Positions 1,557 through 25,738 of a stretch of DNA of 25,738 nucleotides are shown here, one piece after another. The number at the start of each line of letters is the position of its first letter. Positions within the stretch are counted from its first letter, which is position 1. The translations under genes and the position numbers were made by a program. Source of the DNA: a virus; the IMG/VR virus record IMGVR_UViG_3300042355_001510, positions 1-25,738 of that record; one strand, given 5' to 3'. The notes beneath the pieces are model-generated. The model was not told the DNA's origin, made no database searches, and saw nothing but the letters and a program-made list of their open reading frames with translations.

Positions 1557-2019
1557 AAAGGCTGCCCCCACCTCGCCCCCGTCCGACCCAGCGCGCGCGC
1601 CCGACCCCCCTCCCGTCGTGCTGCGGGTCCGTGCCATCAGGCTCCGCATGGAGGCCGGCACCTGGGGGCCCGGGTGCGCCGCCGAGCTCGCCGCAGCGTG
1701 GGGCGTGACGGAGGCCATGGTGCGGGGCCATGCCTCCGAGGCTTCGAGGCAGCTCGAAGCTGTGCTCGACGCGGGCGCCGCCGCTCGCCAGATCGAGGCG
1801 GATATCGACGCGGCGCTCCAGGTCGCGTTCCAGGCTGGCGACATGGGGGCGGTGCAACGGCTCCTGGAGACCCGGCTGAAACTCCACGGCATCGGCGCCC
1901 ACAAGCGCCCCGAGGCTGGGCCCAGCATCCACCAGCAGCCCACGACACAGGCCCCCGCCGAGGTGCCCTTCTGGCTCAAGCCCAAGGCGAAGGCCTCGAA
2001 GGAGGGCGACCCCTCGTGA
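1546..2019 (+). CDS. Putative terminase small subunit (HTH protein)
   Basis: This 157-residue protein directly precedes the large terminase gene and overlaps it by GTGA at 2016. After a Pro/Ala-rich leader (residues 5-24), residues about 25-75 form a helix-turn-helix candidate: RVRAIRLRMEAGTW, then AAELAAAWGVTEAMVRGHAS. Residues 75-120 are helical (IEADIDAALQVAFQ, MGAVQRLLETRLKLHGIG) and could be an oligomerisation domain. Small terminases bind the packaging site on phage DNA and regulate the large subunit's ATPase and nuclease. The assignment rests on HTH-type sequence, size and position; small terminases diverge quickly. Start ATG 1546 is chosen because earlier in-frame starts lie inside the preceding gene. 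Confidence 0.7.
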   Translation: MSGKKAAPTSPPSDPARAPDPPPVVLRVRAIRLRMEAGTWGPGCAAELAAAWGVTEAMVRGHASEASRQLEAVLDAGAAARQIEADIDAALQVAFQAGDMGAVQRLLETRLKLHGIGAHKRPEAGPSIHQQPTTQAPAEVPFWLKPKAKASKEGDPS

Positions 2020-3584
2020 GCGACGGCGCCGCCTTCACCGACTTCCTCGACGCCCTCGACGTGCGCCTCGAAGCAGGCCAACGGGCTTTCTGCCTCGTGG
2101 CCTTCGATGGGCTCCAGGTCGCTGACCTCCAGGGCGAGGACCGGACGTGGGCGGTGAAGATCTTCGGCGACCTGCCCCGGATGCCCGAGGAGGAGTGGGC
2201 GTTCATCCGCATGGTGCTGTGCATCGTGGCCGGGGGGCGCAGCGGCAAGACCTACCTGGCCTCGCTGCGCCTCTTGCACCTTGCCCTGACGGTCGACCTC
2301 AGCGGGCTGGCGCCGGGCGAGGAGGCCTTCGCCGTCATCATCGCCCCGCGCCTGGAGGAGGCAGAGCAGGCGCTGCGCTACATCGCCGGGGCCGCCCGGA
2401 AGCACACCGACATCAAGCGATGCCTCACCACCGACACCTCGGAGCAGCTCACCATCAAGCGCCCCCAGGACGGGCAGAAGGTGACCATCAAGCCGATGGC
2501 AGCCGGGGCCGGTGGCATCAGCGGGCGAGGCAAGACGCTGATCGGCGTGCTGATGGACGAGACCTGCTTCTTCCGCGATCGGCAGAGCGGGGTGGTGAAC
2601 GATGACGTAATCTTCGACGCGGCCGAGCCCCGCGTCGTCGAGGGCGGCCAGACCATCGTGTCGAGCACGCCTTGGGTGGCTCGTGGCCTTCTGCACCGGA
2701 AGTACAAGGAGAACTTCGAGCACCCGCGCAACGCCCTCGTGGCCCATGCCTCGACGCGGAACATGCGCACGAACCCCTTGCAGCTCCGCAAGGTGGACAA
2801 CGCCTATCGCAAGGACGCGAGCAATGCCGCCATCGAGTTCGGCGCCGAGTGGGGCAGCACCACCACCGAGTTGTTTTTCTCCGACGCTGAGCTGGACAGC
2901 ATCTTCGATGGCACCGCGCCGCCCCTGGGCACCCGCCCGACGCCCGGTGACCTCGTGGGCGCCGGCGGGGACCTGGGCTTCAAGCGCAACAGCAGTTCGC
3001 TCGCCATCGTGCGCCAGCGTCCCTCGCGTCAGGTCTGGCTCGCTGACCTCCTGGAGCACAAGCCGACGGGGGGCGTGCGCCTCAAGCCGAGCGTGGTCTG
3101 CGGGGACTTCGCCCAGCGCCTGGCGACCTTCGGGGCCTCGGGCCTGGTGGCCGACCAGCACGAGCGGGCGTCGCTCGAAGAGCACATGGGCGACGCCGGG
3201 TTGAGCGTCCACGATGCCCCGGCGGCGACGGATGCGCTGGTGTCGCTCCGGGCGCAGGTGCGCGAGGGCCTCGTCAAGGCGCCGACCCCCGCGGACGACG
3301 ACGACAGCCCCGAGGCCGCGCTGCTGCGGCGCCTGCGCGAGCAGCTCACCGGGATCAAGCAGCGCCGCACAGTGGGCAACCAGATCTCCGTGGTCATCCC
3401 CGAGGCCATCGACGGGAGCCACGGTGACCTGGCGCAAGGGCTGGCCAACGCCGTGTGGGGCCTGGCCGCGGTGGGGGCCCGAGAGGTCGAGGAGCCCAGG
3501 ACCCGGGCCCACCTGGACCCCGATGAGCGCGAGATGATCGAGGCCGAGGAGCGCCAGGCAAGCAAGCGCCTGGCCTGGCTCTAG
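2016..3584 (+). CDS. terL: Terminase large subunit (packaging ATPase-nuclease)
   Basis: This 522-residue protein is the motor that translocates DNA into the prohead and cuts it into headfuls. The ATPase part shows Walker A GGRSGKT (residues 73-79), Walker B LMDE (179-182, catalytic Glu182) and a coupling motif SSTP (216-219). The nuclease part shows spaced acids of an RNase H-like fold: Asp319 in GGDLGFKRNSS, Asp380 in GLVADQHE, and Asp466/Asp471 in DGSHGDLAQG. GTG 2016 overlaps the end of the small terminase gene. The longer open frame upstream is a shadow. Length and motif order fit the family. The TAG stop shares the palindrome CTAG (3581-3584) with the stop of the convergent minus-strand gene. 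Confidence 0.95.
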   Translation: MSDGAAFTDFLDALDVRLEAGQRAFCLVAFDGLQVADLQGEDRTWAVKIFGDLPRMPEEEWAFIRMVLCIVAGGRSGKTYLASLRLLHLALTVDLSGLAPGEEAFAVIIAPRLEEAEQALRYIAGAARKHTDIKRCLTTDTSEQLTIKRPQDGQKVTIKPMAAGAGGISGRGKTLIGVLMDETCFFRDRQSGVVNDDVIFDAAEPRVVEGGQTIVSSTPWVARGLLHRKYKENFEHPRNALVAHASTRNMRTNPLQLRKVDNAYRKDASNAAIEFGAEWGSTTTELFFSDAELDSIFDGTAPPLGTRPTPGDLVGAGGDLGFKRNSSSLAIVRQRPSRQVWLADLLEHKPTGGVRLKPSVVCGDFAQRLATFGASGLVADQHERASLEEHMGDAGLSVHDAPAATDALVSLRAQVREGLVKAPTPADDDDSPEAALLRRLREQLTGIKQRRTVGNQISVVIPEAIDGSHGDLAQGLANAVWGLAAVGAREVEEPRTRAHLDPDEREMIEAEERQASKRLAWL

Positions 3585-3775: not shown

Positions 3776-3951
3776 GCCGCCAGGGTACGCTGAAGCTCCT
3801 CGACGCGGCGCTTCAGGTCGGGCCGCTGGTCCAGCAGGGCCGCCAGCGCCATGTCAGCGACGCGGCTGAAGGTCTCTCCGGTCAGGAGATGGACGGCGCG
3901 GGCCTTCTCGTACACCTCGTGCTCCAGGCTCACCTGTTTACGTAGTGACAT
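3772..3951 (-). CDS. Ribbon-helix-helix (CopG/Arc-like) regulator
   Basis: From ATG 3951 the product is 59 residues: strand RKQVSLE (4-10), helix A HEVYEKARAVHLL (11-23), a TGET turn (24-27) and helix B FSRVADMALAALLDQ (28-42), then a charged tail. This is the length and pattern of RHH DNA-binding proteins (CopG, Arc, antitoxin type), which dimerise and insert a two-stranded sheet into the major groove of repeated operators. A longer reading from 4080 is less likely because the extra N-terminus (with CWHR and CIQV) is translated from the repeat-rich upstream region. The gene precedes a 64-residue ORF with ATGA overlap. Autoregulation through the repeats at 3960-4006 is plausible but not shown. 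Confidence 0.75.
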   Translation of the reverse strand: MSLRKQVSLEHEVYEKARAVHLLTGETFSRVADMALAALLDQRPDLKRRVEELQRTLAA

Positions 3952-4052: not shown

Positions 4053-4289
4053 GTGAGCATCGAGGCGGCGCTGGCAGCACTGAGGGACGCGGGGGCGACG
4101 CAGGTCGTTGTCACCTTCGCCCTCGTGCCTGCGGCCCCGTCCGCCCCTGCCCCGCTGCCGGCGCCCCCTGAGCCCGAGCCCACCCTCACCGAGGAGCCCG
4201 ACGATGAAACGCTAGCCGAGGACCCGCTCTTCCGTTCCACGTCCGTCCGTCCTCGGCGCCCTCGCCATGCGGAGGAGCCCGATGGCTAA
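4053..4289 (+). CDS. Small proline-rich protein before portal
   Basis: This 78-residue ORF starts at GTG 4053 with MSIEAALAALRDAGATQVVV, a short helix and strand, followed by a Pro/Ala/Glu-rich disordered tail (residues 27-52) and a basic end. Its TAA (4287-4289) lies eight bases into the portal gene, as is common for small genes inserted between terminase and portal. No family is recognised. It is the first plus-strand gene after the reversed module, so it would need either read-through from terL or a promoter in 3952-4052. No clear ribosome site is visible before the GTG, which lowers confidence. Confidence 0.5.
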   Translation: MSIEAALAALRDAGATQVVVTFALVPAAPSAPAPLPAPPEPEPTLTEEPDDETLAEDPLFRSTSVRPRRPRHAEEPDG

Positions 4290-6075
4290 CCTCCGCTGGT
4301 GGCACGAGGACAAGCCCCACGCCTCGCTGATGCGGGTCGTGCGAAAGATCCAGGACGACCAGAGCGACCTGAACGAGCGTACGTTCACCTCGCTCTGCCT
4401 CTACGACGACTGGCAAGCCCTGCCCTTCGCCTTTGGTGGCTACGAGCTGCAGCGCACCGAGGTTGAGGGCCACTTCGCCGTCAACGCGGTGCGCTCGTGC
4501 GTCGACACGGTGAGGGTGGAGACCATCCAGGCCCGCCCTCGCCCGCTGTTCCTCACCTCCGGCGGCGACTGGACCCTGCGGCGCAAGGGCCAGAAGATGG
4601 GGAAGTTTGTCGAGGGCGTCTTCAACGAGTGCGCCTTCGACCGCCTCGCCTCGTCCGTCGTGCTCGACGCCCTCACCTCCCCCTGGGGCTGCGTCCAGAT
4701 CGTGCAGGACGAGTTCACGGGCCGTGCGGCGCTCCGGCGCATCCTTCCCGGTGAGCTGTGGGTGGACCGTCGCGACGGGCACTACGGCGCCCCCCGGTCG
4801 GTCTACCTCACCCGGTGGGTCGACCGCACCGTGCTCCAGGAGCTCTACCCCAAGCACGCCAACGAGATCGAGACGGCTCGCGACGAGCTGAACCTGCAGT
4901 GGCAGTGGTCTGACAGTGAGAGCGATCTGGTCTGCGTGGTCGAGGCCTGGCACCTCCCCAGCGGCCCCAACGCCAAGGACGGGCGCCACGTCGTGGTCTG
5001 CTCCGCCTGCACCCTGGACGAGGAGGCCTGGACGGCGCAGTCGTTCCCCTTCGCTTTCCTCCGGTGGAAGACCCCGACCAGCGGCTTCCACGCCCGCTCC
5101 CTCGCCGACGAGCTGCGGAAGATCCAGCGCGCGCTGAACGTGGCCGCCGCGGACATCGAGGACGGCCAGGAGCTACACGCCCACACCAAGATCTGGCTGC
5201 CCCTCAACAGCAAGGTCAACAAGGGCCACTTCACCGGCGACGCCGGGCGGTTCATCGAGGGCGCCGTGAAGCCGGAGCCCATCGTGTTCCCCGCGGTCTC
5301 CCCCGAGGTGTACCGTTGGTTCGATCGGCTGCTGGAGCTGGCCTACCAGATGAGCGGCGTAGCCGTCGCCGCAGCCCGGAGCGAGAAGCCCGCGGGCACC
5401 ACGAGCGGGCGAGCCATCCGGCTGACCGCTGACCTGCAGAGCAAGCGCTTCCTCGACTTCGCCCGCGCCTACGAGCAGTTCTACATCGACGTCTCACGTG
5501 AAATCGTGCGGCTCATGGAGCGCCTGTCCGAGGAGGACTCCTCCTACGACGTGGCCTACCAGGGCAAGGGCCACGCCGAGCGCATCGCCTGGAACGATGT
5601 CCGGATCGATGAGTCTTCGTACATCCTCCAGACCTGGCCGACGAACCTCTTGCCCAGCACCCCCCAGGGCAAGCTCGACAGCGTCGTCGACCTCGTCTCG
5701 ACGGGCTTCACCGAGCGGCTGGGCATCCCCGCCGAGCAGATCCTCAAGCTCCTCGACTTCCCCGACATCGAGGCCGCCTTCGGGCTGGTGACGGCGTCGT
5801 GGGATCGCGTCGAGCAGATCCTCGAGATCATGCTGGACGAGGGCAAGTACCTGCCACCGGAGCCCTTCTACAACCTCTCCTTGTGCCTCGGCGCCGCGGT
5901 CCGCCACTACCAGCAGTGGCAGATCTGGGGCGTCCCCGAGGAGCGTATGGAACTTCTGCGGCAGTGGATCGGCGACTGCAAGGCGCTGCTCCTGGCCGCC
6001 AACCCCCCAGCGCCCCCGCCGCCCCCCGCCGGCGGTGAGGCGCCCCTGCCCCCCGCCCCGGAGATGGCCGCATGA
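4282..6075 (+). CDS. Portal protein
   Basis: The portal is the dodecameric ring at the capsid vertex through which DNA enters and leaves, and it docks the terminase and adaptor. The 597-residue size, the place after terL and before scaffold, and segments such as FPFAFLRWKTPTSGFHARSL, DELRKIQRALNVAAADIED and GRAIRLTADLQSKRFLDFA, with a long helix, fit podovirus portals. The start is ATG 4282, with GGAGG at 4271-4275 six bases upstream; the ATG at 4267 lies upstream of this ribosome site. The C-terminus ends in a Pro-rich tail (PPAPPPPPAGGEAPLPP). The stop overlaps the scaffold start by ATGA. Confidence 0.88.
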   Translation: MANLRWWHEDKPHASLMRVVRKIQDDQSDLNERTFTSLCLYDDWQALPFAFGGYELQRTEVEGHFAVNAVRSCVDTVRVETIQARPRPLFLTSGGDWTLRRKGQKMGKFVEGVFNECAFDRLASSVVLDALTSPWGCVQIVQDEFTGRAALRRILPGELWVDRRDGHYGAPRSVYLTRWVDRTVLQELYPKHANEIETARDELNLQWQWSDSESDLVCVVEAWHLPSGPNAKDGRHVVVCSACTLDEEAWTAQSFPFAFLRWKTPTSGFHARSLADELRKIQRALNVAAADIEDGQELHAHTKIWLPLNSKVNKGHFTGDAGRFIEGAVKPEPIVFPAVSPEVYRWFDRLLELAYQMSGVAVAAARSEKPAGTTSGRAIRLTADLQSKRFLDFARAYEQFYIDVSREIVRLMERLSEEDSSYDVAYQGKGHAERIAWNDVRIDESSYILQTWPTNLLPSTPQGKLDSVVDLVSTGFTERLGIPAEQILKLLDFPDIEAAFGLVTASWDRVEQILEIMLDEGKYLPPEPFYNLSLCLGAAVRHYQQWQIWGVPEERMELLRQWIGDCKALLLAANPPAPPPPPAGGEAPLPPAPEMAA

Positions 6076-16604: not shown

Positions 16605-19166
16605 GTGGCTGACGTCCAGCTCTACGACGCGCAGACGGGCGCCCCGATCACCGCAGACGCGGCGACGGCGGCGGACCTCGTGCGCTCGGGGAAAGCTGGC
16701 TTCCTCGCCGACCAGAAGGTTGCGATCCAGGACCAGACCGGGGCCACGCGCGAGCTTAGCGGCACCGACGCCGCGGCCTACCTGAGCAGCGCCGAGGCGC
16801 GCTTCGGTGGCGGTGGCGTGGGCGACGCGGCGGTGCTCCAGAAGCAGCGCCAGCAGGAGGCCTTCGGCGGGGTCGGGGGCGCTGCCCTCGCCGCGGTGAC
16901 CGGTGGCCTCCGGGGGGCCACGCTGGGCCTCTCGGACCTGGCCTTGACGGGCATCGGCGCCGTCGAGGCGGACACGCTCCGGAACTTGCAGGAGGCCAAC
17001 CCCCTCGCGTCGCTGGCGGGCGAGGGCGCCGGCATGATCGCCCCGGTGCTGCTCTCCGGTGGTGCCGGGGGCGCGGCGCGGGCGGGCGTCGGGGCCGCCG
17101 AGGGGGCGAGCGCGCTCCGGGGCGTGGAGCTCGCCGCGGGGGCCATGCCCTCGGCTCTGGCGGCACGAGCGGGCGGCGCGGTAGAGCGGGCGATCCTGGG
17201 CGCGGCACCGGGGGCGCTCGAGCGGGTGACCGCCGGAGCCGCCAGCGCCGCAGCCGAGGGGGCGCTCTTCGGCGTCGGCCAGGAGGTGAGCCGGGCCACG
17301 CTCCGCAACGAGAGCCTGAGCGCAGAGAAGCTCGTCGCCAGCGCGGGACACGGCGCACTGCTCGGCGGAGCCGTGGGCGGTGGCCTCGGGGCCGTTGGGG
17401 CGGTCATGCGCGGGGCCGCCTCAAAAGCCTCGGATGCGGGCGCGGCGGCGCTACGGCGCTTCGAGCAGAAGGAAGGGGCGCTCGCGGGTGAGCTGGCCGG
17501 CGCCGCCCCCAAGACGGCCGAGGGGGTGCAAGCCCTCGCCGGGCGAGCGGAGCGCGAATTCGCGCTGAAGAGCACCGGAGCCAACCAGCCGCAGATTCAG
17601 CGGTTGCAGGCGATGGGCGCCGACATCGAGGCGCGCGCCGTCCGGACCATGGCCGATGGCGAGCTTGCTCAGGCCCTGGGGAAGGATGCGAAGGCGTTGC
17701 TCACCGCCGAGGAGAAGTCAGCCGCGGCGGCGCTGCTCCGCGACGAGCGGGGCAAGGCGGTGCGCGCGGGCGTCGAGGAGATCAAGGCCGCGGGCGGCAA
17801 GATCGACGTCGAGGCCTTCGTGGCGGAGCAGCGCGCGGCGATGGCAGAGCGCCTCGCCCGCGAGGCCAACCCCGACCTTGCGCGAGCGGCGAAGCAGACC
17901 GACGAGTGGCTCCAGCAGATCGAGACGAAGATCGGCGACGGTGACCTTGTCCGGGTCTGGGAGACCAAGAGCGACCTCGGGAAAGAGGCCTTCCGGAAGG
18001 GCGCCGACACCATCGAGAAGGACCTGAAACAGGACCTGTATCGAGCCCTGAACGACCGCATCAAGACCGTCGGCGATGACATCGCGGCCAAGGAGGGCGC
18101 CGAGTTCGCCGCTCGATGGAGCAACACCAACGCCGAATACCGCGCCGCGAACTGGCTGGCGGAGGCCACGGAGAAGGGCGCCGCGAGGAGCGCCAGCAAC
18201 CGAAACTTCGGCCTGTCGGAGCAGCTCGGCGCCGTGGCTGGCGTCATCGTGGGCGGGGGTGGACCTGCAGGCCTGGCCCTCGCCGCCGGCGGCGCCTACG
18301 CGAACCACCTCGCCAAGGTCTACGGCGCAGACGTCGGCATGCAGCTCGCCCGCAGCGTGCGACAGGGCGAGGTGGTCTCCACGGTCGAGCGGGCCTTCGA
18401 CCAGCTCCTGGGCCAGCGCGCGGCGGACGTGGCCGGGGTCGCTCGTGGGGCCCTCGGCGCCCTCACCGGCGCCGCCAAGGTGGCACGCCCCGGGGTGCCC
18501 CTGGCGCTCACCACCGGGCGCGTCGCCGAGGTCACCAGCGCCCGCGACCAGAGGCAGAACTTTGAGCGCACCCGCGACCGTCTCGCCGCCTACCAGGCGA
18601 ACCCCGACGCCAGGATCAGCGCAGCCACCGCGGGCCTCCCGCCGTCCACTGCGGCGGCGGTCAAGAGCGTGGTGCAGCGCGGCGCCGACTTCCTTGCCTC
18701 GAAGCTCCCCCGGCGCCCGCTCCCCGAAGGCGTGCCGGCGGCTATCGCGAAGGCGAGCCAGCCGAGCCCCGACGAGATCAGCCGCTTCATGCGCTACGCC
18801 CGCGCCGTCGATGACCCGCTGCAGGTCCTCGAGGACGCCCGCGCCGGCAAGCTCTCGGCCGAATCTGTCGAGGCGGTCAAGGCGGTCTACCCGAGCGTCT
18901 ACCAGGCCATCGTGGAGACCGTGCAAGAGAACCTCCTCGCCCGCGCGAAGCCGCTGAGCTGGGCGGAGGAAGTGCAGCTCGCGACGCTCGGAATCCCCGT
19001 CAACGACAACCTGCGCCCCGACGCGATCAAGCTCTTCCAAGACGCCTACACCTCGCCCGCCGCGTCGCCGGGCCCCTCGGCTCCTGTGCGCTCCGGCGCC
19101 CCGTCTCGCCCGCTCAACCCCCCGCGGCTCGCAAGCCGCCTCGACTCCCTCGGAGAAGCCCCATGA
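16605..19166 (+). CDS. Large internal virion/ejection protein
   Basis: This is an 853-residue protein from GTG 16605, directly after the previous TGA. Hydrophobic glycine-zipper segments occur at about 87-120 (FGGVGGAALAAVTGG...), 141-168, 248-270 (GHGALLGGAVGGGLGAVGAV) and 540-570 (LGAVAGVIVGGGGPAGLAL). They alternate with amphipathic helices such as QTDEWLQQIETKIGDGDLV and TKSDLGKEAFRKGADTIEK. A C-terminal helical domain begins near residue 724 (EISRFMRYARAVDDPLQVLE, then LSAESVEAVKAVYPSVYQAI) and continues to a Pro-rich end. This resembles the last domain of other phage internal proteins. It likely forms part of a trans-envelope DNA channel. No lysozyme or transglycosylase motif is visible. 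Confidence 0.7.
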   Translation: MADVQLYDAQTGAPITADAATAADLVRSGKAGFLADQKVAIQDQTGATRELSGTDAAAYLSSAEARFGGGGVGDAAVLQKQRQQEAFGGVGGAALAAVTGGLRGATLGLSDLALTGIGAVEADTLRNLQEANPLASLAGEGAGMIAPVLLSGGAGGAARAGVGAAEGASALRGVELAAGAMPSALAARAGGAVERAILGAAPGALERVTAGAASAAAEGALFGVGQEVSRATLRNESLSAEKLVASAGHGALLGGAVGGGLGAVGAVMRGAASKASDAGAAALRRFEQKEGALAGELAGAAPKTAEGVQALAGRAEREFALKSTGANQPQIQRLQAMGADIEARAVRTMADGELAQALGKDAKALLTAEEKSAAAALLRDERGKAVRAGVEEIKAAGGKIDVEAFVAEQRAAMAERLAREANPDLARAAKQTDEWLQQIETKIGDGDLVRVWETKSDLGKEAFRKGADTIEKDLKQDLYRALNDRIKTVGDDIAAKEGAEFAARWSNTNAEYRAANWLAEATEKGAARSASNRNFGLSEQLGAVAGVIVGGGGPAGLALAAGGAYANHLAKVYGADVGMQLARSVRQGEVVSTVERAFDQLLGQRAADVAGVARGALGALTGAAKVARPGVPLALTTGRVAEVTSARDQRQNFERTRDRLAAYQANPDARISAATAGLPPSTAAAVKSVVQRGADFLASKLPRRPLPEGVPAAIAKASQPSPDEISRFMRYARAVDDPLQVLEDARAGKLSAESVEAVKAVYPSVYQAIVETVQENLLARAKPLSWAEEVQLATLGIPVNDNLRPDAIKLFQDAYTSPAASPGPSAPVRSGAPSRPLNPPRLASRLDSLGEAP

Positions 19167-22101: not shown

Positions 22102-22742
22102 GCGCAGACGCCATCGGCCTCGCGGCTCACCGGCTCGTGGGGCTGTCGTGGGGTGACGAGGCGACCCGGCGCGACTACTCGCGGATCCTGGCGCCGTGGG
22201 ATAGCGAAGAGCGCGCGGTGCTCATGGCCTCGGAGCAGTCGAGCTGTGCTCTCACCGTCGCGGCGATCCTGCTGATCGCGGAGGTCGACGGGATGGTCCG
22301 GGGCTGGCGGGGCAAGGTCGCCTGCGATCCCCTCCGGGAGCCTCGCTGGCAGCGGTACGATAGCGTGGCCTACCTGGAGCAGCTCGCCCGGCAGCGCGGC
22401 GTGTACAAGGGCGCCGGGAAGGAGAGGCCGGACCTGCGCCCCGGTACGTGGTGGACGGTCTCCTCGGGTCGGGGCGATGAGCACGTGGAGATGGTCGTGG
22501 AGGTCGATGGCGATGACCTCGTGTGCGTCGGGGGCGGCAAGCTCGACCCGCTCAACCCCCGCCCCGGCGCCAAAGGTTGCACCCGCATCGCCCTCGGGAG
22601 GCACCGGCTTGCCCAGGCGCACGGGCGGTGGACGCTCTCGGGGCGCCCGCTGCTCTACACGGCGGACGCCACGGAGCTACCCTGCCTCACCACCGGCGAG
22701 CGCAAGGGGATGCCCTGGGAGCTGATCGGGGTGAAGCCATGA
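22098..22742 (+). CDS. Papain-like Cys/His peptidase or amidase candidate
   Basis: This is a 214-residue protein. Cys50 in EQSSCALTVAAIL starts a helix, as does the nucleophile of CHAP/NlpC-type enzymes. His129 in GRGDEHVEMVVEVDGDDLV heads a strand pair after a PGTWWTV turn, followed by CVGGGKLDPLNP and CTRIALGRHRL. This order (SxC helix, then PGxxxxV, then xHVEMVVxVDGD) is that of papain-like peptidoglycan hydrolases, though sequence identity is unknown. The gene overlaps the muramidase gene (ATGA at 22739), so a second cell-wall activity within the lysis cassette is plausible. Alternatives are an inactive homologue or a virion peptidase. GTG 22098 is set by overlap. Confidence 0.5.
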   Translation: MSADAIGLAAHRLVGLSWGDEATRRDYSRILAPWDSEERAVLMASEQSSCALTVAAILLIAEVDGMVRGWRGKVACDPLREPRWQRYDSVAYLEQLARQRGVYKGAGKERPDLRPGTWWTVSSGRGDEHVEMVVEVDGDDLVCVGGGKLDPLNPRPGAKGCTRIALGRHRLAQAHGRWTLSGRPLLYTADATELPCLTTGERKGMPWELIGVKP

Positions 22743-23452
22743 GCCGCGCCGTCCTCGCCCCGGAGGTGCTCGATCACTGGATCCGCCACACCGAGCGGTA
22801 TGAGGGCCGGATCCCCTGGCTCTACCTCGACATCCGGGGCCTCGTGACCATCGGCGCGGGCGTGCTCGTGGACCCCGTGGAGCTCGCCATGAGGCTCCCG
22901 TTGGAGCTCGACGGACGCCCGGCGACCCCCGGGGAGATCGCCGACGAATGGCGCGCGCTGAAGGCCCGCCCGTCGCTCGCCCAGCAGGGCGCCGGTGCTG
23001 CGGGCAGGATCGCCCGGCTGCGCCTCACCGGAGCCGACCTCGACGCCCTCACCTGGGCGCGGCTGGACTCGACCGTGAGGGCGCTGGTGCGACGGTGGCC
23101 TGGCCTCCCCGGGTGGCCCTGGCAGGCACAGCTTGCCGTCTGCTCGTGGGCCTGGGCGGTCGGGGCGATGGCTCAGGGCTGGCCCCGATTCGAGGCGGCC
23201 TTGCACGCCCAAGACTGGACCACGGCGGCGGACCAGTGCCGGATCCGGGACGCCGATAACCCGGGGGTGACCCCGCGCAACGTCGAGAACCGGAGGCTCT
23301 TCCTGGCCGCAGCCGAGCGGGCCACGACGGTCCCGCCCCCGGAGCCGGAGCCCACCGACCGGATCCCCGTGGGCGAGGTCACGGCGCTGGTGGCAGAGAC
23401 CGGGGATGCCCTCGCCCGGGAACTGCTCGCGGAGGGGTACCGGCGGCGCTGA
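22739..23452 (+). CDS. GH24-type endolysin (T4 lysozyme-like muramidase)
   Basis: This 237-residue protein is a phage lysozyme cutting the glycan strands of peptidoglycan. The catalytic triad spacing of T4 lysozyme (Glu11, Asp20, Thr26) is matched by Glu22 in ERYEGRIPW, Asp31 in YLDIRGLVTIG and Thr37, an exact E+9, D+6 spacing. The rest has a helical lobe with SWAWAVGAMAQGW, EAALHAQDWTTAADQC and NPGVTPRNVENRRLFLAAAE, the usual C-terminal RR-type lobe. The final ~50 residues are acidic/Pro with a helix (PEPEPTDRIPVGEVTALVAE). ATG 22739 overlaps the previous stop. No signal peptide is seen, so export depends on a holin. It is the last plus-strand protein gene, followed by a terminator. Confidence 0.9.
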   Translation: MSRAVLAPEVLDHWIRHTERYEGRIPWLYLDIRGLVTIGAGVLVDPVELAMRLPLELDGRPATPGEIADEWRALKARPSLAQQGAGAAGRIARLRLTGADLDALTWARLDSTVRALVRRWPGLPGWPWQAQLAVCSWAWAVGAMAQGWPRFEAALHAQDWTTAADQCRIRDADNPGVTPRNVENRRLFLAAAERATTVPPPEPEPTDRIPVGEVTALVAETGDALARELLAEGYRRR

Positions 23453-23523: not shown

Positions 23524-23566
23524 CAGAGGCTCCCGGGATTTGGCCCCGGGGGCCTTCTGCTTTTGT
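23524..23566 (+). terminator. Rho-independent terminator after late genes
   Basis: CAGAGG (23524-23529) and CTCCCGGG pair with CCCGGGGG and CCTTCTG (to 23559), with one bulge, forming a GC-rich hairpin, followed by CTTTTG. It lies about 70 bases after the endolysin stop and would end the late transcript. Confidence 0.65.
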
Positions 23567-23723: not shown

Positions 23724-23798
23724 CGCGTGGTGGAGCAGAGGTAGCTCGGCGGGCCCATAACCCGAAGGTCGCTGGTTCAAGTCCAGCCCGCGCAACCA
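23724..23798 (+). tRNA. tRNA-fMet (initiator), anticodon CAT, C33 variant
   Basis: This 75-nt tRNA has acceptor GCGTGG (23725-23730) paired with CCGCGC (23788-23793, one G-T pair). The D stem is GAGC/GCTC, anticodon CAT at 23756-23758, T stem GCTGG/CCAGC and CCA is encoded at 23796-23798. Initiator traits are C1 against A72 (23724 and 23794, unpaired) and three consecutive G-C pairs next to the anticodon loop (GGG 23751-23753 with CCC 23761-23763). The loop is CCCATAA, so position 33 (23755) is C instead of the near-universal U. The 27-43 pair is a G/A mismatch. Confidence 0.93.
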
Positions 23799-23799
23799 G

Positions 23800-23832
23800 A
23801 GCCCCCGGCGCCCCCGGGGGCTTCGCCGTTTT
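23800..23832 (+). terminator. Terminator after tRNA-fMet
   Basis: AGCCCCC (23800-23806) pairs with GGGGGCT (23816-23822), followed two bases beyond the CCA end by a T-containing tail TCGCCGTTTT. It probably ends the tRNA transcript; the T-tract is short. Confidence 0.5.
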
Positions 23833-23960: not shown

Positions 23961-24011
23961 CTTGAGGTGCTAGCGGGTAACACCGTGGGGGTTCAAGTCC
24001 CCCCCTTCGCA
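23961..24011 (+). other. attP: attP core: 3' half of tRNA-Leu(GAG)
   Basis: From CTTGAGG (anticodon loop with GAG at 23964-23966) through GTGCTAG, the variable arm (CGGGTAACACCG), a T-arm GGGGG-TTCAAGT-CCCCC (23987-24003) and acceptor half CCTTCGC (24004-24010), then A, the sequence matches the 3' part of a tRNA-Leu. The 5' half of a tRNA is absent upstream, and the CCA reads CAA. Tyrosine-recombinase phages typically carry such a tRNA 3' half so that integration restores the host gene. Integrase lies immediately next to it. The exact core boundaries cannot be set without the host attB. Confidence 0.75.
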
Positions 24012-25216
24012 CAAGTCTTCAGGATTGCTGAGAGAATCGACGCCCGGCCCCGTGCTGGGCGTTCGTCGTTTTTGGCGGCTCGGCCAGAATCCCGACCAGA
24101 ATCCCAAGCCCTCCGCACCAGCGGCGCGGGGCGCTGCTTGGCCGCCTCCCTCGCCTGCCCCACCAGCTGCTCGGCGGCTCGCGCCGTCGCCTTCGCGTAG
24201 ATCGCCGTCGTCGTGACCTGCCTGTGCCCCGCGAGGTAGGCCACCGCCGTCAGGCTCCCGCCGTGCTCTACCCAGTAGGTCAGCCGCGCATGCCGGAGGT
24301 CGTAGACCGACAGGCTCCGGATCTTCTCGGGGGCCAGGCGCGCCGCCCGGGCCGCCGTCTTCAGGTAGGCCCGGCGGTCGTACCCCCCGAAGACCGGCAG
24401 GCCCGGCTCGGCGCACCCTTCGAGGATCGCCAGCGCCGTCGGGGTGAGCGGGACGCGGCGGGCGAAGCGGGCCTTGTCGATGGTCGCCGAGACGTCGAGG
24501 TGGCGCTGCCCTCGCCTCCAGTGCTCGCCCACCACCAGGGCCTCGACGGTCGCCGGCCTCAGCGCGGTCTCCCAGAGGAACCGGAAGTAAGCCCGCACCA
24601 GGAAGTGCCTCCCGTCGGCGCCCGGCTTCGTGCTGCGCTCGGGCAGCTCGGCGAGCAGGCGCAGCACCTCTTGCTCGCCGAGCTCGGTGGCCTGGGTTTT
24701 CCTCGAGGTGGCGCGGACCCCCGGGGCGCGACCGGGGAGCTTCGGGAAGACCAGCGGGGCGGCGAGGAGCTTCTGCTCCTTGAGCCACTCCCCGAAGCGA
24801 GCCAGCGCCGCCCGCTCCTTCCGGAGCGTCGTGCGGGTCACCTCGGCGAGGCGCTCGCGCTGGTAGGCACCGAGGGCGGCCTCGTCGAGCTGCTCCAGGC
24901 GCGACCAGCGCGGCAGCCAGTGGGCGCGGGCATAGGTCTCGTACAGCCCGACGGTGCCGGGCGTGTAGCTCGATTCCAGCGCTTCGAGCCAGGCCTGCAG
25001 CAGGTCCACCAGCGGAGTGCTGGTCGTCGCCTGGCCTCGCGTGGGCGTCAGGCGGCCTGCGAGGACGTCCGCGTAGAGCTTCTCCGCCCGCTCAAGAGCC
25101 GGGCCTTTCTCGCCCTCGCCTGTGGAGAGGTGGTAACGGCGACGGTCGTGGGTGAAGCGGACGTACCACGTGTCCCCTTCGAGCTTGATTTTCCAGATGC
25201 CTGGTCGTCGAGCCAT
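23993..25216 (-). CDS. int: Tyrosine integrase
   Basis: This 407-residue site-specific recombinase integrates the phage at tRNA-Leu. The catalytic set in ATG-25216 numbering is Arg220 (ETALRPATVEAL), Lys248 (KARFARRVPL), Tyr305-x-x-Arg308 (VYDLRHARL, where Tyr replaces the usual first His), His331 (LAGHRQVTTT) and nucleophile Tyr340 (AIYAKAT). The N-terminal ~65 residues (WKIKLEGDTWYVRFT) form an arm-binding beta domain and ~70-160 the core-binding helices. ATG 25216 (MARRPGIWK) is preferred over 25249, which would lie further inside the HTH gene. The 3' end runs through the tRNA terminator and into the attP core, with the stop at 23995-23993 in the T stem-loop. Confidence 0.92.
   Translation of the reverse strand: MARRPGIWKIKLEGDTWYVRFTHDRRRYHLSTGEGEKGPALERAEKLYADVLAGRLTPTRGQATTSTPLVDLLQAWLEALESSYTPGTVGLYETYARAHWLPRWSRLEQLDEAALGAYQRERLAEVTRTTLRKERAALARFGEWLKEQKLLAAPLVFPKLPGRAPGVRATSRKTQATELGEQEVLRLLAELPERSTKPGADGRHFLVRAYFRFLWETALRPATVEALVVGEHWRRGQRHLDVSATIDKARFARRVPLTPTALAILEGCAEPGLPVFGGYDRRAYLKTAARAARLAPEKIRSLSVYDLRHARLTYWVEHGGSLTAVAYLAGHRQVTTTAIYAKATARAAEQLVGQAREAAKQRPAPLVRRAWDSGRDSGRAAKNDERPARGRASILSAILKTCAKGGT
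24041..24073 (+). terminator. tRNA-Leu terminator carried inside int
   Basis: CGCCCGGC (24041-24048) pairs with GCTGGGCG (24054-24061, one G-T), followed by TTCGTCGTTTTT. It lies 30 bases after the tRNA-Leu 3' end on the same strand, inside the antisense of the int C-terminus. After integration it would terminate the restored tRNA and protect int from antisense transcription. Confidence 0.6.
24081..24105. repeat. 18-bp direct repeat copy 2 plus third CCAGAATCCC
   Basis: The second exact copy of the 18-bp repeat lies at 24081-24098, and CCAGAATCCC repeats in tandem at 24084-24093 and 24096-24105. Because this is int coding DNA, the repeat also encodes the WDSGRDSGR tail of the integrase. Confidence 0.6.
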
Positions 25217-25368
25217 CGGATCAAATCCTCTTCTTTGTAGCGGCAACACCCCCCGATCCGCCGCTCGAACCCCGCTCTGGCGAGGCTCGGCTGCACGTGC
25301 CGGAGGAAGGTCTTGAGGGAGAGCTGCAGGAGCTTGGCGGCTTCTTTTCGGGTGAGGAGCGGGGCCAT
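25048..25368 (-). CDS. Excisionase-like HTH protein
   Basis: From ATG 25368 the product is 106 residues (GTG 25377 is an alternative). Residues 4-55 read LLTRKEAAKLLQLSLKTFLR, then ERRIGGCCRYKEEDLIRWLD. This is the winged HTH fold of the MerR/excisionase superfamily (helix, turn, helix, then a YKEEDLIRWL wing), a common directionality factor for tyrosine integrases. It is encoded upstream of int on the same strand. The frame runs on ~170 nt past the int start as a low-complexity Ser/Thr/Arg tail, with no earlier stop. Either the tail is real or the protein is truncated by regulation or misread frame. Function may instead be repressor. Confidence 0.7.
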   Translation of the reverse strand: MAPLLTRKEAAKLLQLSLKTFLRHVQPSLARAGFERRIGGCCRYKEEDLIRWLDDQASGKSSSKGTRGTSASPTTVAVTTSPQARARKARLLSGRRSSTRTSSQAA

Positions 25369-25433
25369 CACCGCCACAGCCCCCGGGCTCCGGTTCTCCG
25401 GGGCGACGGGGGCGCGGTGGACAGGGCGAGGGG

Positions 25434-25529
25434 CTACCGCCTCTCCCTCCCGGAGACGGCGAGGCTGCTACCGACCGCCAGCGCCAGGAGGGCGAGGCCG
25501 GCCAGCATTTCGAGGATGCCTTGGGTCAC
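25434..25529 (-). CDS. 31-residue membrane peptide
   Basis: GTG (25529-25527) overlaps the stop of the upstream Cys-rich gene (GTGA), and TAG ends it at 25434. The peptide MTQGILEMLAGLALLALAVG, then SSLAVSGRERR, is one hydrophobic helix with a basic tail. It is 66 bases before the HTH start. Function is unknown. Overlap and a clear membrane pattern are the support; it is easily missed by gene finders. Confidence 0.45.
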   Translation of the reverse strand: MTQGILEMLAGLALLALAVGSSLAVSGRERR

Positions 25530-25738
25530 GGTGTCACCCCGCCCGGTAGCGTCGTCAGACTGGCCACAGCGCGCAGCACCTCGGCCCACGGCCTATCGGT
25601 CGTGGTGCCCGTGTGGCAGGCGTCGCAGGCGTCGCGCTTGGCTGCGTGGTCCACCACCGTGGCAACGGCGCCGCACGCACACGACGGGCACCGGGCTAGC
25701 ATTTCCAGGACGGCGAGGTGCAACGCGCGATAGTCCCG
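25526..25738 (-). CDS. Small Cys-rich (zinc-ribbon-type) protein, 5' end beyond window
   Basis: The minus-strand frame is open to the right edge of the window. TTG 25723 or ATG 25702 could be the start within it. The product reads MLARCPSCACGAVATVVDHA then KRDACDACHTGTTTDR, with CPSC and CDAC pairs 16 residues apart that would hold one zinc ion. The C-terminus is a short helix (PWAEVLRAVASLTTL). Zinc-ribbon proteins of this size are common in phage early regions. Partner and role are unknown. Confidence 0.5.
   Translation of the reverse strand, partial: RDYRALHLAVLEMLARCPSCACGAVATVVDHAAKRDACDACHTGTTTDRPWAEVLRAVASLTTLPGGVTP

Follow-up and report, generated by a model that had tools for sequence, protein, structure and literature searches.

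A phage-borne initiator tRNA with C33 beside the integration module of a temperate, most likely myxobacterial phage

Why should a phage carry an initiator tRNA of its own, and why should that tRNA have C rather than U directly before its anticodon? Both questions are raised by a gene at 23724-23798 of the IMG/VR record IMGVR_UViG_3300042355_001510. We analysed the whole of this 25.7-kb virus record, which is probably a fragment ('the window', 25,738 nucleotides). Its genes include those for a terminase, a portal, a head protein, an endolysin, an integrase and an excisionase (Pfam, PHROG), and its source is a temperate phage. The features on which the argument depends are the following.

1674-3584, + strand: terminase large subunit (PHROG E 1.1e-15)
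4267-6075, + strand: portal protein (PHROG E 7e-10; relatives in Myxococcota genomes)
22523-23452, + strand: endolysin, the last late gene upstream of the tRNA (weak PHROG match, E 3e-4; 86-90% identical in relatives)
23526-23556, + strand: terminator-like hairpin between the late/lysis genes and the tRNA (-31.9 kcal/mol, z -4.2)
23724-23798, + strand: initiator tRNA (tRNA-fMet, CAU) with C33 and encoded CCA (ARAGORN, Rfam, sequence)
23755, + strand: C33, immediately 5' of the anticodon CAU at 23756-23758 (sequence)
23799-23832, + strand: terminator-like hairpin 3' of the CCA (10-bp stem, 5-nt loop, then TCGCCGTTTT; -20.9 kcal/mol)
23961-24012, + strand: presumed attP core, running from the anticodon loop to the 3' end of a tRNA-Leu(GAG), no complete tRNA (up to 95% match, Myxococcota)
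23993-25249, - strand: tyrosine integrase (Pfam PF00589, E 4e-8; PHROG integrase, E 2e-29)
25048-25377, - strand: excisionase or HTH DNA-binding protein (PHROG E 5.6e-8)

The true start of the endolysin is likely an ATG internal to its open reading frame. The excisionase frame overlaps that of the integrase, and the exact ends in use there are not fixed. The first-pass annotation had described the tRNA as phage-borne, which the analysis supports. The gene stands alone between the endolysin and the attP/integrase region, and because it is bounded by hairpins on both sides it looks like a free-standing transcription unit. The upstream hairpin is strong and has a T-rich tail; the downstream one starts at, or within one or two bases of, the CCA end, and was not flagged by the terminator scan, its T's being too few. 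A scan of the window found no sigma-70-like promoter for the tRNA, and the promoters of this clade may differ.

The claim that this is an initiator tRNA agrees with both the model calls and the bases themselves. ARAGORN made a single tRNA call in the window, tRNA-Met(CAT) at 23724-23798 (+), and the Rfam tRNA model matched 23724-23795 at 53.4 bits (gathering threshold 29; E 4.6e-9), far beyond chance, so that the cloverleaf is recognised by both tRNA models. A bare minimum-free-energy fold did not return the cloverleaf, as is common for unmodified tRNA sequences. At the acceptor end, C1 (23724) lies unpaired opposite A72 (23794). The D-stem, GAGC/GCUC, includes A11:U24 (23734, 23746), and in the anticodon stem G29-G31 (23751-23753) pair with C39-C41 (23761-23763), giving three consecutive G-C pairs. 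The C1·A72 mismatch, A11:U24 and the G-C pairs of the anticodon stem are all marks of bacterial initiators (PMC4611024). Furthermore, the 75-nt gene has a regular T-arm with T54, intact contact bases in the D- and T-loops, the discriminator A73 and an encoded CCA (23796-23798). Judged from its sequence, it is a complete bacterial-type initiator tRNA. It shares C1·A72, A11:U24, the GGG/CCC anticodon stem, CAU and CCA with bacterial tRNA-fMet, but differs in having C33 rather than U33, a 7-nt D-loop and G27·A43, and in being phage-borne. The D-loop, which contains GG, is 2 nt shorter than in the candidate hosts discussed below; G27·A43, where the host has U27-A43, weakens the upper anticodon stem, and there is also a U5·G68 wobble.

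The anticodon loop consists of C32, C33, C34, A35, U36, A37 and A38. Because base 23755 lies directly 5' of the anticodon it is position 33, and the C that had been reported there, immediately before CAU, is present in place of the usual U. U33 is usual in all tRNAs; it is neither specific to initiators nor a strict mark of them. Moreover, since native C33 initiators exist, C33 does not exclude the gene from the initiators.

Three close relatives of the phage were found through the endolysin (L342, L343 and L344; 86-90% identity), and none has a tRNA at the corresponding place. In L342 the slot holds other sequence with small reverse open reading frames (read by eye), and in the remaining relatives it holds nothing. 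Next to a different integrase, the three relatives have an attP formed by the 3' half of a different tRNA. Because the three closest relatives are without it, the window tRNA is, on this genomic comparison, optional cargo adjoining an exchangeable integration module. We also considered that the gene is a relic, that is, a former attachment site, captured host DNA or a functionless pseudogene. In its favour, the slot that the gene occupies varies among relatives, and the present attP, which is itself a piece of a tRNA gene, is about 160 bp away. This reading is nevertheless improbable, as the gene is complete, whereas attP sites retain just a 3' piece, and it has lost neither any of its initiator features nor its CCA nor the bases through which the D- and T-loops make contact.

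Two further observations concern the region downstream. Compared with L342-L344, the integration module (23961-25249 in the window) appears to have been swapped as a unit, with the integrase and the tRNA 3' half of the attP changing together. Beyond it, 25349-25738 is 98.7% identical to L343/L344 over 390 bp, whereas other shared parts are about 88% identical, which may reflect a recent exchange at 25349-25738.

The attP also provides a pointer to the host. Against complete tRNA-Leu(GAG) genes of Myxococcota the best match was 95% over 58 bp, and distant relatives of the portal protein occur in 11 of 183 genomes of the same Myxococcota order, mostly at 25-33% identity. On the strength of one attP and these distant prophage relatives, the host is most likely a myxobacterium, and the candidate order, judged by the large size of its genomes alone, is probably Polyangiales. 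No exact host genome was found among the genomes compared, and the ten stretches around the portal relatives of this order contained no Met tRNA. Two other proposals were considered and set aside. Planctomycetota, whose Phycisphaerae natively carry C33, gave a weaker attP match (89% at best, against 95%), and the window tRNA is not the phage's own attachment site, the attP being a separate tRNA-Leu fragment.

If the host is a myxobacterium, how does its own initiator compare? An initiator pattern with base 33 left open matched in 140 of the 183 genomes of this order, and U33 was present in every chromosomal initiator among the matches listed, with about eleven of the 140 genomes outside them. 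The window tRNA and the best host initiator share 90% identity; the differences are at positions 33, 27 and 5, in the T-arm and at two D-loop bases. An identical host initiator, the case that the first-pass annotation had named as fatal to its proposal, is thus rejected for the sampled clade. When base 33 was masked, the nearest of 273 other initiators was a U33 initiator from a host-order genome, which suggests an origin from a host-type initiator followed by a change from U33 to C33, although this nearest-neighbour analysis of base 33 is coarse, a 75-nt gene carrying little phylogenetic signal. Given U33 in all the listed host-order initiators, and 90% identity to the nearest of them, the phage is probably where C33 arose. 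The anticodon loop accordingly differs from that of the candidate host clade (C33 here, U33 there), and the window tRNA belongs to a known kind, the phage-borne tRNA with an altered anticodon loop, being in this case an initiator.

We consider it rather probable that the gene encodes a working spare initiator, carried as optional cargo by a temperate and likely myxobacterial phage, and derived from a host-type U33 initiator with C33 gained on the phage. The phage would have acquired the host-type gene, in which U33 then changed to C33. Because an initiator goes straight to the P site of the ribosome, it would have no need of the U33 turn, for which A-site decoding selects, and this may be what makes C33 compatible with initiation. 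During infection, we infer, the spare tRNA would be expressed, charged and formylated, and would serve as an initiator, starting proteins once the host pool falls short.

That C33 can initiate is indicated by its native presence in some lineages, in one case as the sole match in a complete chromosome. A genome-wide scan found C33 initiators in Weissella/Leuconostoc relatives, Erysipelotrichaceae, Phycisphaerae, several Patescibacteria and several archaeal groups. In a complete 5.8-Mb Phycisphaerales chromosome the C33 form is the sole initiator match, and both initiator matches in Weissella confusa are C33. The native genes of Weissella/Leuconostoc, Phycisphaerae, several Patescibacteria and archaea resemble the window tRNA in being initiator-type with C33, but they are chromosomal and sometimes the only match, whereas the likely host clade of the window phage has U33. 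C33 was seen in the chromosomal initiators of three Weissella entries (L130, L137 and L147), and in Fructilactobacillus lindneri (L160) two copies, one with C33 and the other with U33, lie about 600 bp from each other, which offers a natural comparison inside a single genome. Separately, 8 kb of a Myxococcales metagenome-assembled genome (L231:118-7010) hold at least 26 tRNA genes, one of which, at 3867-3938, is a C33 Met tRNA; this array looks phage-like or mobile, and a separate initiator-like match lies elsewhere in that genome.

The recurrence of C33 in native initiators of unrelated prokaryotes could also mean that it acts as an extra barrier to elongation, in that a tRNA without the U-turn base would be a poorer A-site substrate, so that a phage initiator expressed at a high level would be kept off internal AUG codons. 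As the first-pass annotation had stated, eukaryotic cytosolic initiators likewise have C33 (PMC9023262), and the same role may hold there. However, formylation already keeps bacterial initiators off EF-Tu (PMC4611024), and most phage initiators retain U33, so we think this explanation unlikely. The similarity to the eukaryotic initiator is a one-base resemblance and not common descent, as the window tRNA is bacterial-type, with an unpaired 1-72 and T54.

How unusual, then, is such a gene among phages? Both the description of a phage-borne initiator as uncommon and the treatment of C33 as a rarity have to be given up, because initiator-type tRNAs abound in viral collections and C33 is frequent among them. 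Viral contigs searched for the C33 form yielded at least 119 stretches, and at least 102 of the C33 matches pass as initiator-type tRNAs. When base 33 was left open, 16 of 120 initiator-type stretches (about 13%, or one in eight) had C33, the 120 being made up of 104 new stretches, all with U33, and the 16 already fetched as C33. Cultured phages with C33 include Pseudomonas phage D3 and its relatives and Janthinobacterium phage Donnerlittchen. The D3 gene (AF165214, 53398-53473) is, like that of the window, phage-borne, initiator-type and C33, but it has another host and another sequence, is annotated merely as tRNA-Met and lies near other tRNA genes, whereas the window gene is alone. C33 phage initiators are thus already in the databases; in the literature that we searched, mostly outside subscription journals, we found no paper remarking on them. 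The same numbers bear on the quality of the base call. The window is a single metagenome contig, and 23755 might in principle be a sequencing or assembly error for T, but this is very improbable, as C33 is seen again in at least about 100 other viral matches and also in finished records of phages, D3 among them.

Further variation was seen in viral Met-type tRNAs, in a sample that mixes initiators and elongators, where the anticodon loop also varies at positions 32, 37 and 38. Several initiator-like phage tRNAs (e.g. L378, L382 and L387) have U in place of A38, and position 38 is where the anticodon loop meets its stem, the place at which VapC toxins reportedly cut. In Pseudanabaena phage Pan5 (L429, 31585-31653), a stretch resembling the window tRNA is annotated within a coding sequence (omega transcriptional repressor) and is possibly a missed tRNA gene.

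Sampled chromosomes gave a different picture from the viruses. No C33 was found in the Pseudomonadota and Actinomycetota chromosomes sampled, two genomes chosen for C33 being excluded. Over three host groups, C33 occurred in none of about 270 chromosomes among the matches listed, against 16 of 120 viral stretches (p about 1e-9, computed with 284 genomes, about eleven unlisted ones included); the viral and chromosomal samples were not matched host by host, and some viral hosts may natively use C33. Among 82 viral initiators whose register was checked by the D-stem, 12 had C33 and none had A or G, whereas U8, A14 and A21 deviated in only 2-5% of the same 82. As only C replaces U and the other invariant positions vary less, position 33 is specifically free in phage initiators, which does not mean that C33 is favoured.

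The simplest account of this freedom is that selection on the base is weak: a pyrimidine would be tolerated in P-site initiation, C33 would drift in and out, and the gene would be a plain spare initiator. The replacement of U by C alone, never by A or G, fits this account, as does the way in which phage initiators with C33 and with U33 intermingle when compared by sequence similarity. Phage elongators, too, lack U33 in about 6% of cases, and whole bacterial and archaeal lineages live with C33. On the other hand, variation at the other invariant positions of these phage genes is 3-6 times lower, so that they show no general decay; phage initiators depart from U33 more often than phage elongators do (Fisher p 0.003); and the absence of C33 from the chromosomes described above is harder to reconcile with drift. 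Neutrality is a serious contender, though one to which we give less than even weight.

Of the advantages that C33 itself might confer, survival of host anticodon-loop nucleases is the single most likely, although we hold it tentatively and consider neutral tolerance about as likely. Anticodon-loop changes relative to the host tRNA are common in phage tRNAs, where they serve as a means of nuclease escape (van den Berg et al., 2023; PMC10264068), and the window tRNA has such a change relative to the candidate host clade. The junction of anticodon stem and loop is where several VapC toxins cleave tRNAs, among them the initiator (PMC8522696), and PIN-domain (VapC-type) genes are present in seven of eight candidate hosts. 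However, phages tend not to encode the initiator where VapC cuts its anticodon (PMC10264068), which counts against nuclease escape here, and the literature searched yielded no nuclease shown to need U33 of the initiator. In its strong form, the proposal that C33 is a recurrent and selected phage adaptation, a spare initiator escaping defence or toxin nucleases aimed at the initiator anticodon loop, is possible but doubtful.

A last suggestion, that the tRNA aids late genes starting with GTG, is very unlikely to be right. Some window genes are given a GTG start in the mechanical list of open reading frames (e.g. 16605-19166), but the same list gives ATG for several structural genes (e.g. those at 6072, 7095, 8328 and 9506). 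Nor does the anticodon differ from the usual CAU, with which bacterial initiators generally decode AUG as well as GUG. We know of no link between base 33 and the choice of start codon.

That phages carry tRNAs has long called for an explanation, and the C33 pattern is a testable clue to it. A phage initiator is a clean test case because the usual codon compensation cannot apply to initiators. The excess of C33, both over chromosomes and over the other conserved positions of the same tRNAs, leads to a testable prediction about a single base, for which the cultured phage D3 and Pseudomonas aeruginosa provide a ready system. Such tests would also reveal whether initiation depends in any way on the near-universal U33. 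Finally, if the nuclease-escape reading were true, an adaptation nearly absent from the hosts would be found in over a tenth of phage initiators.
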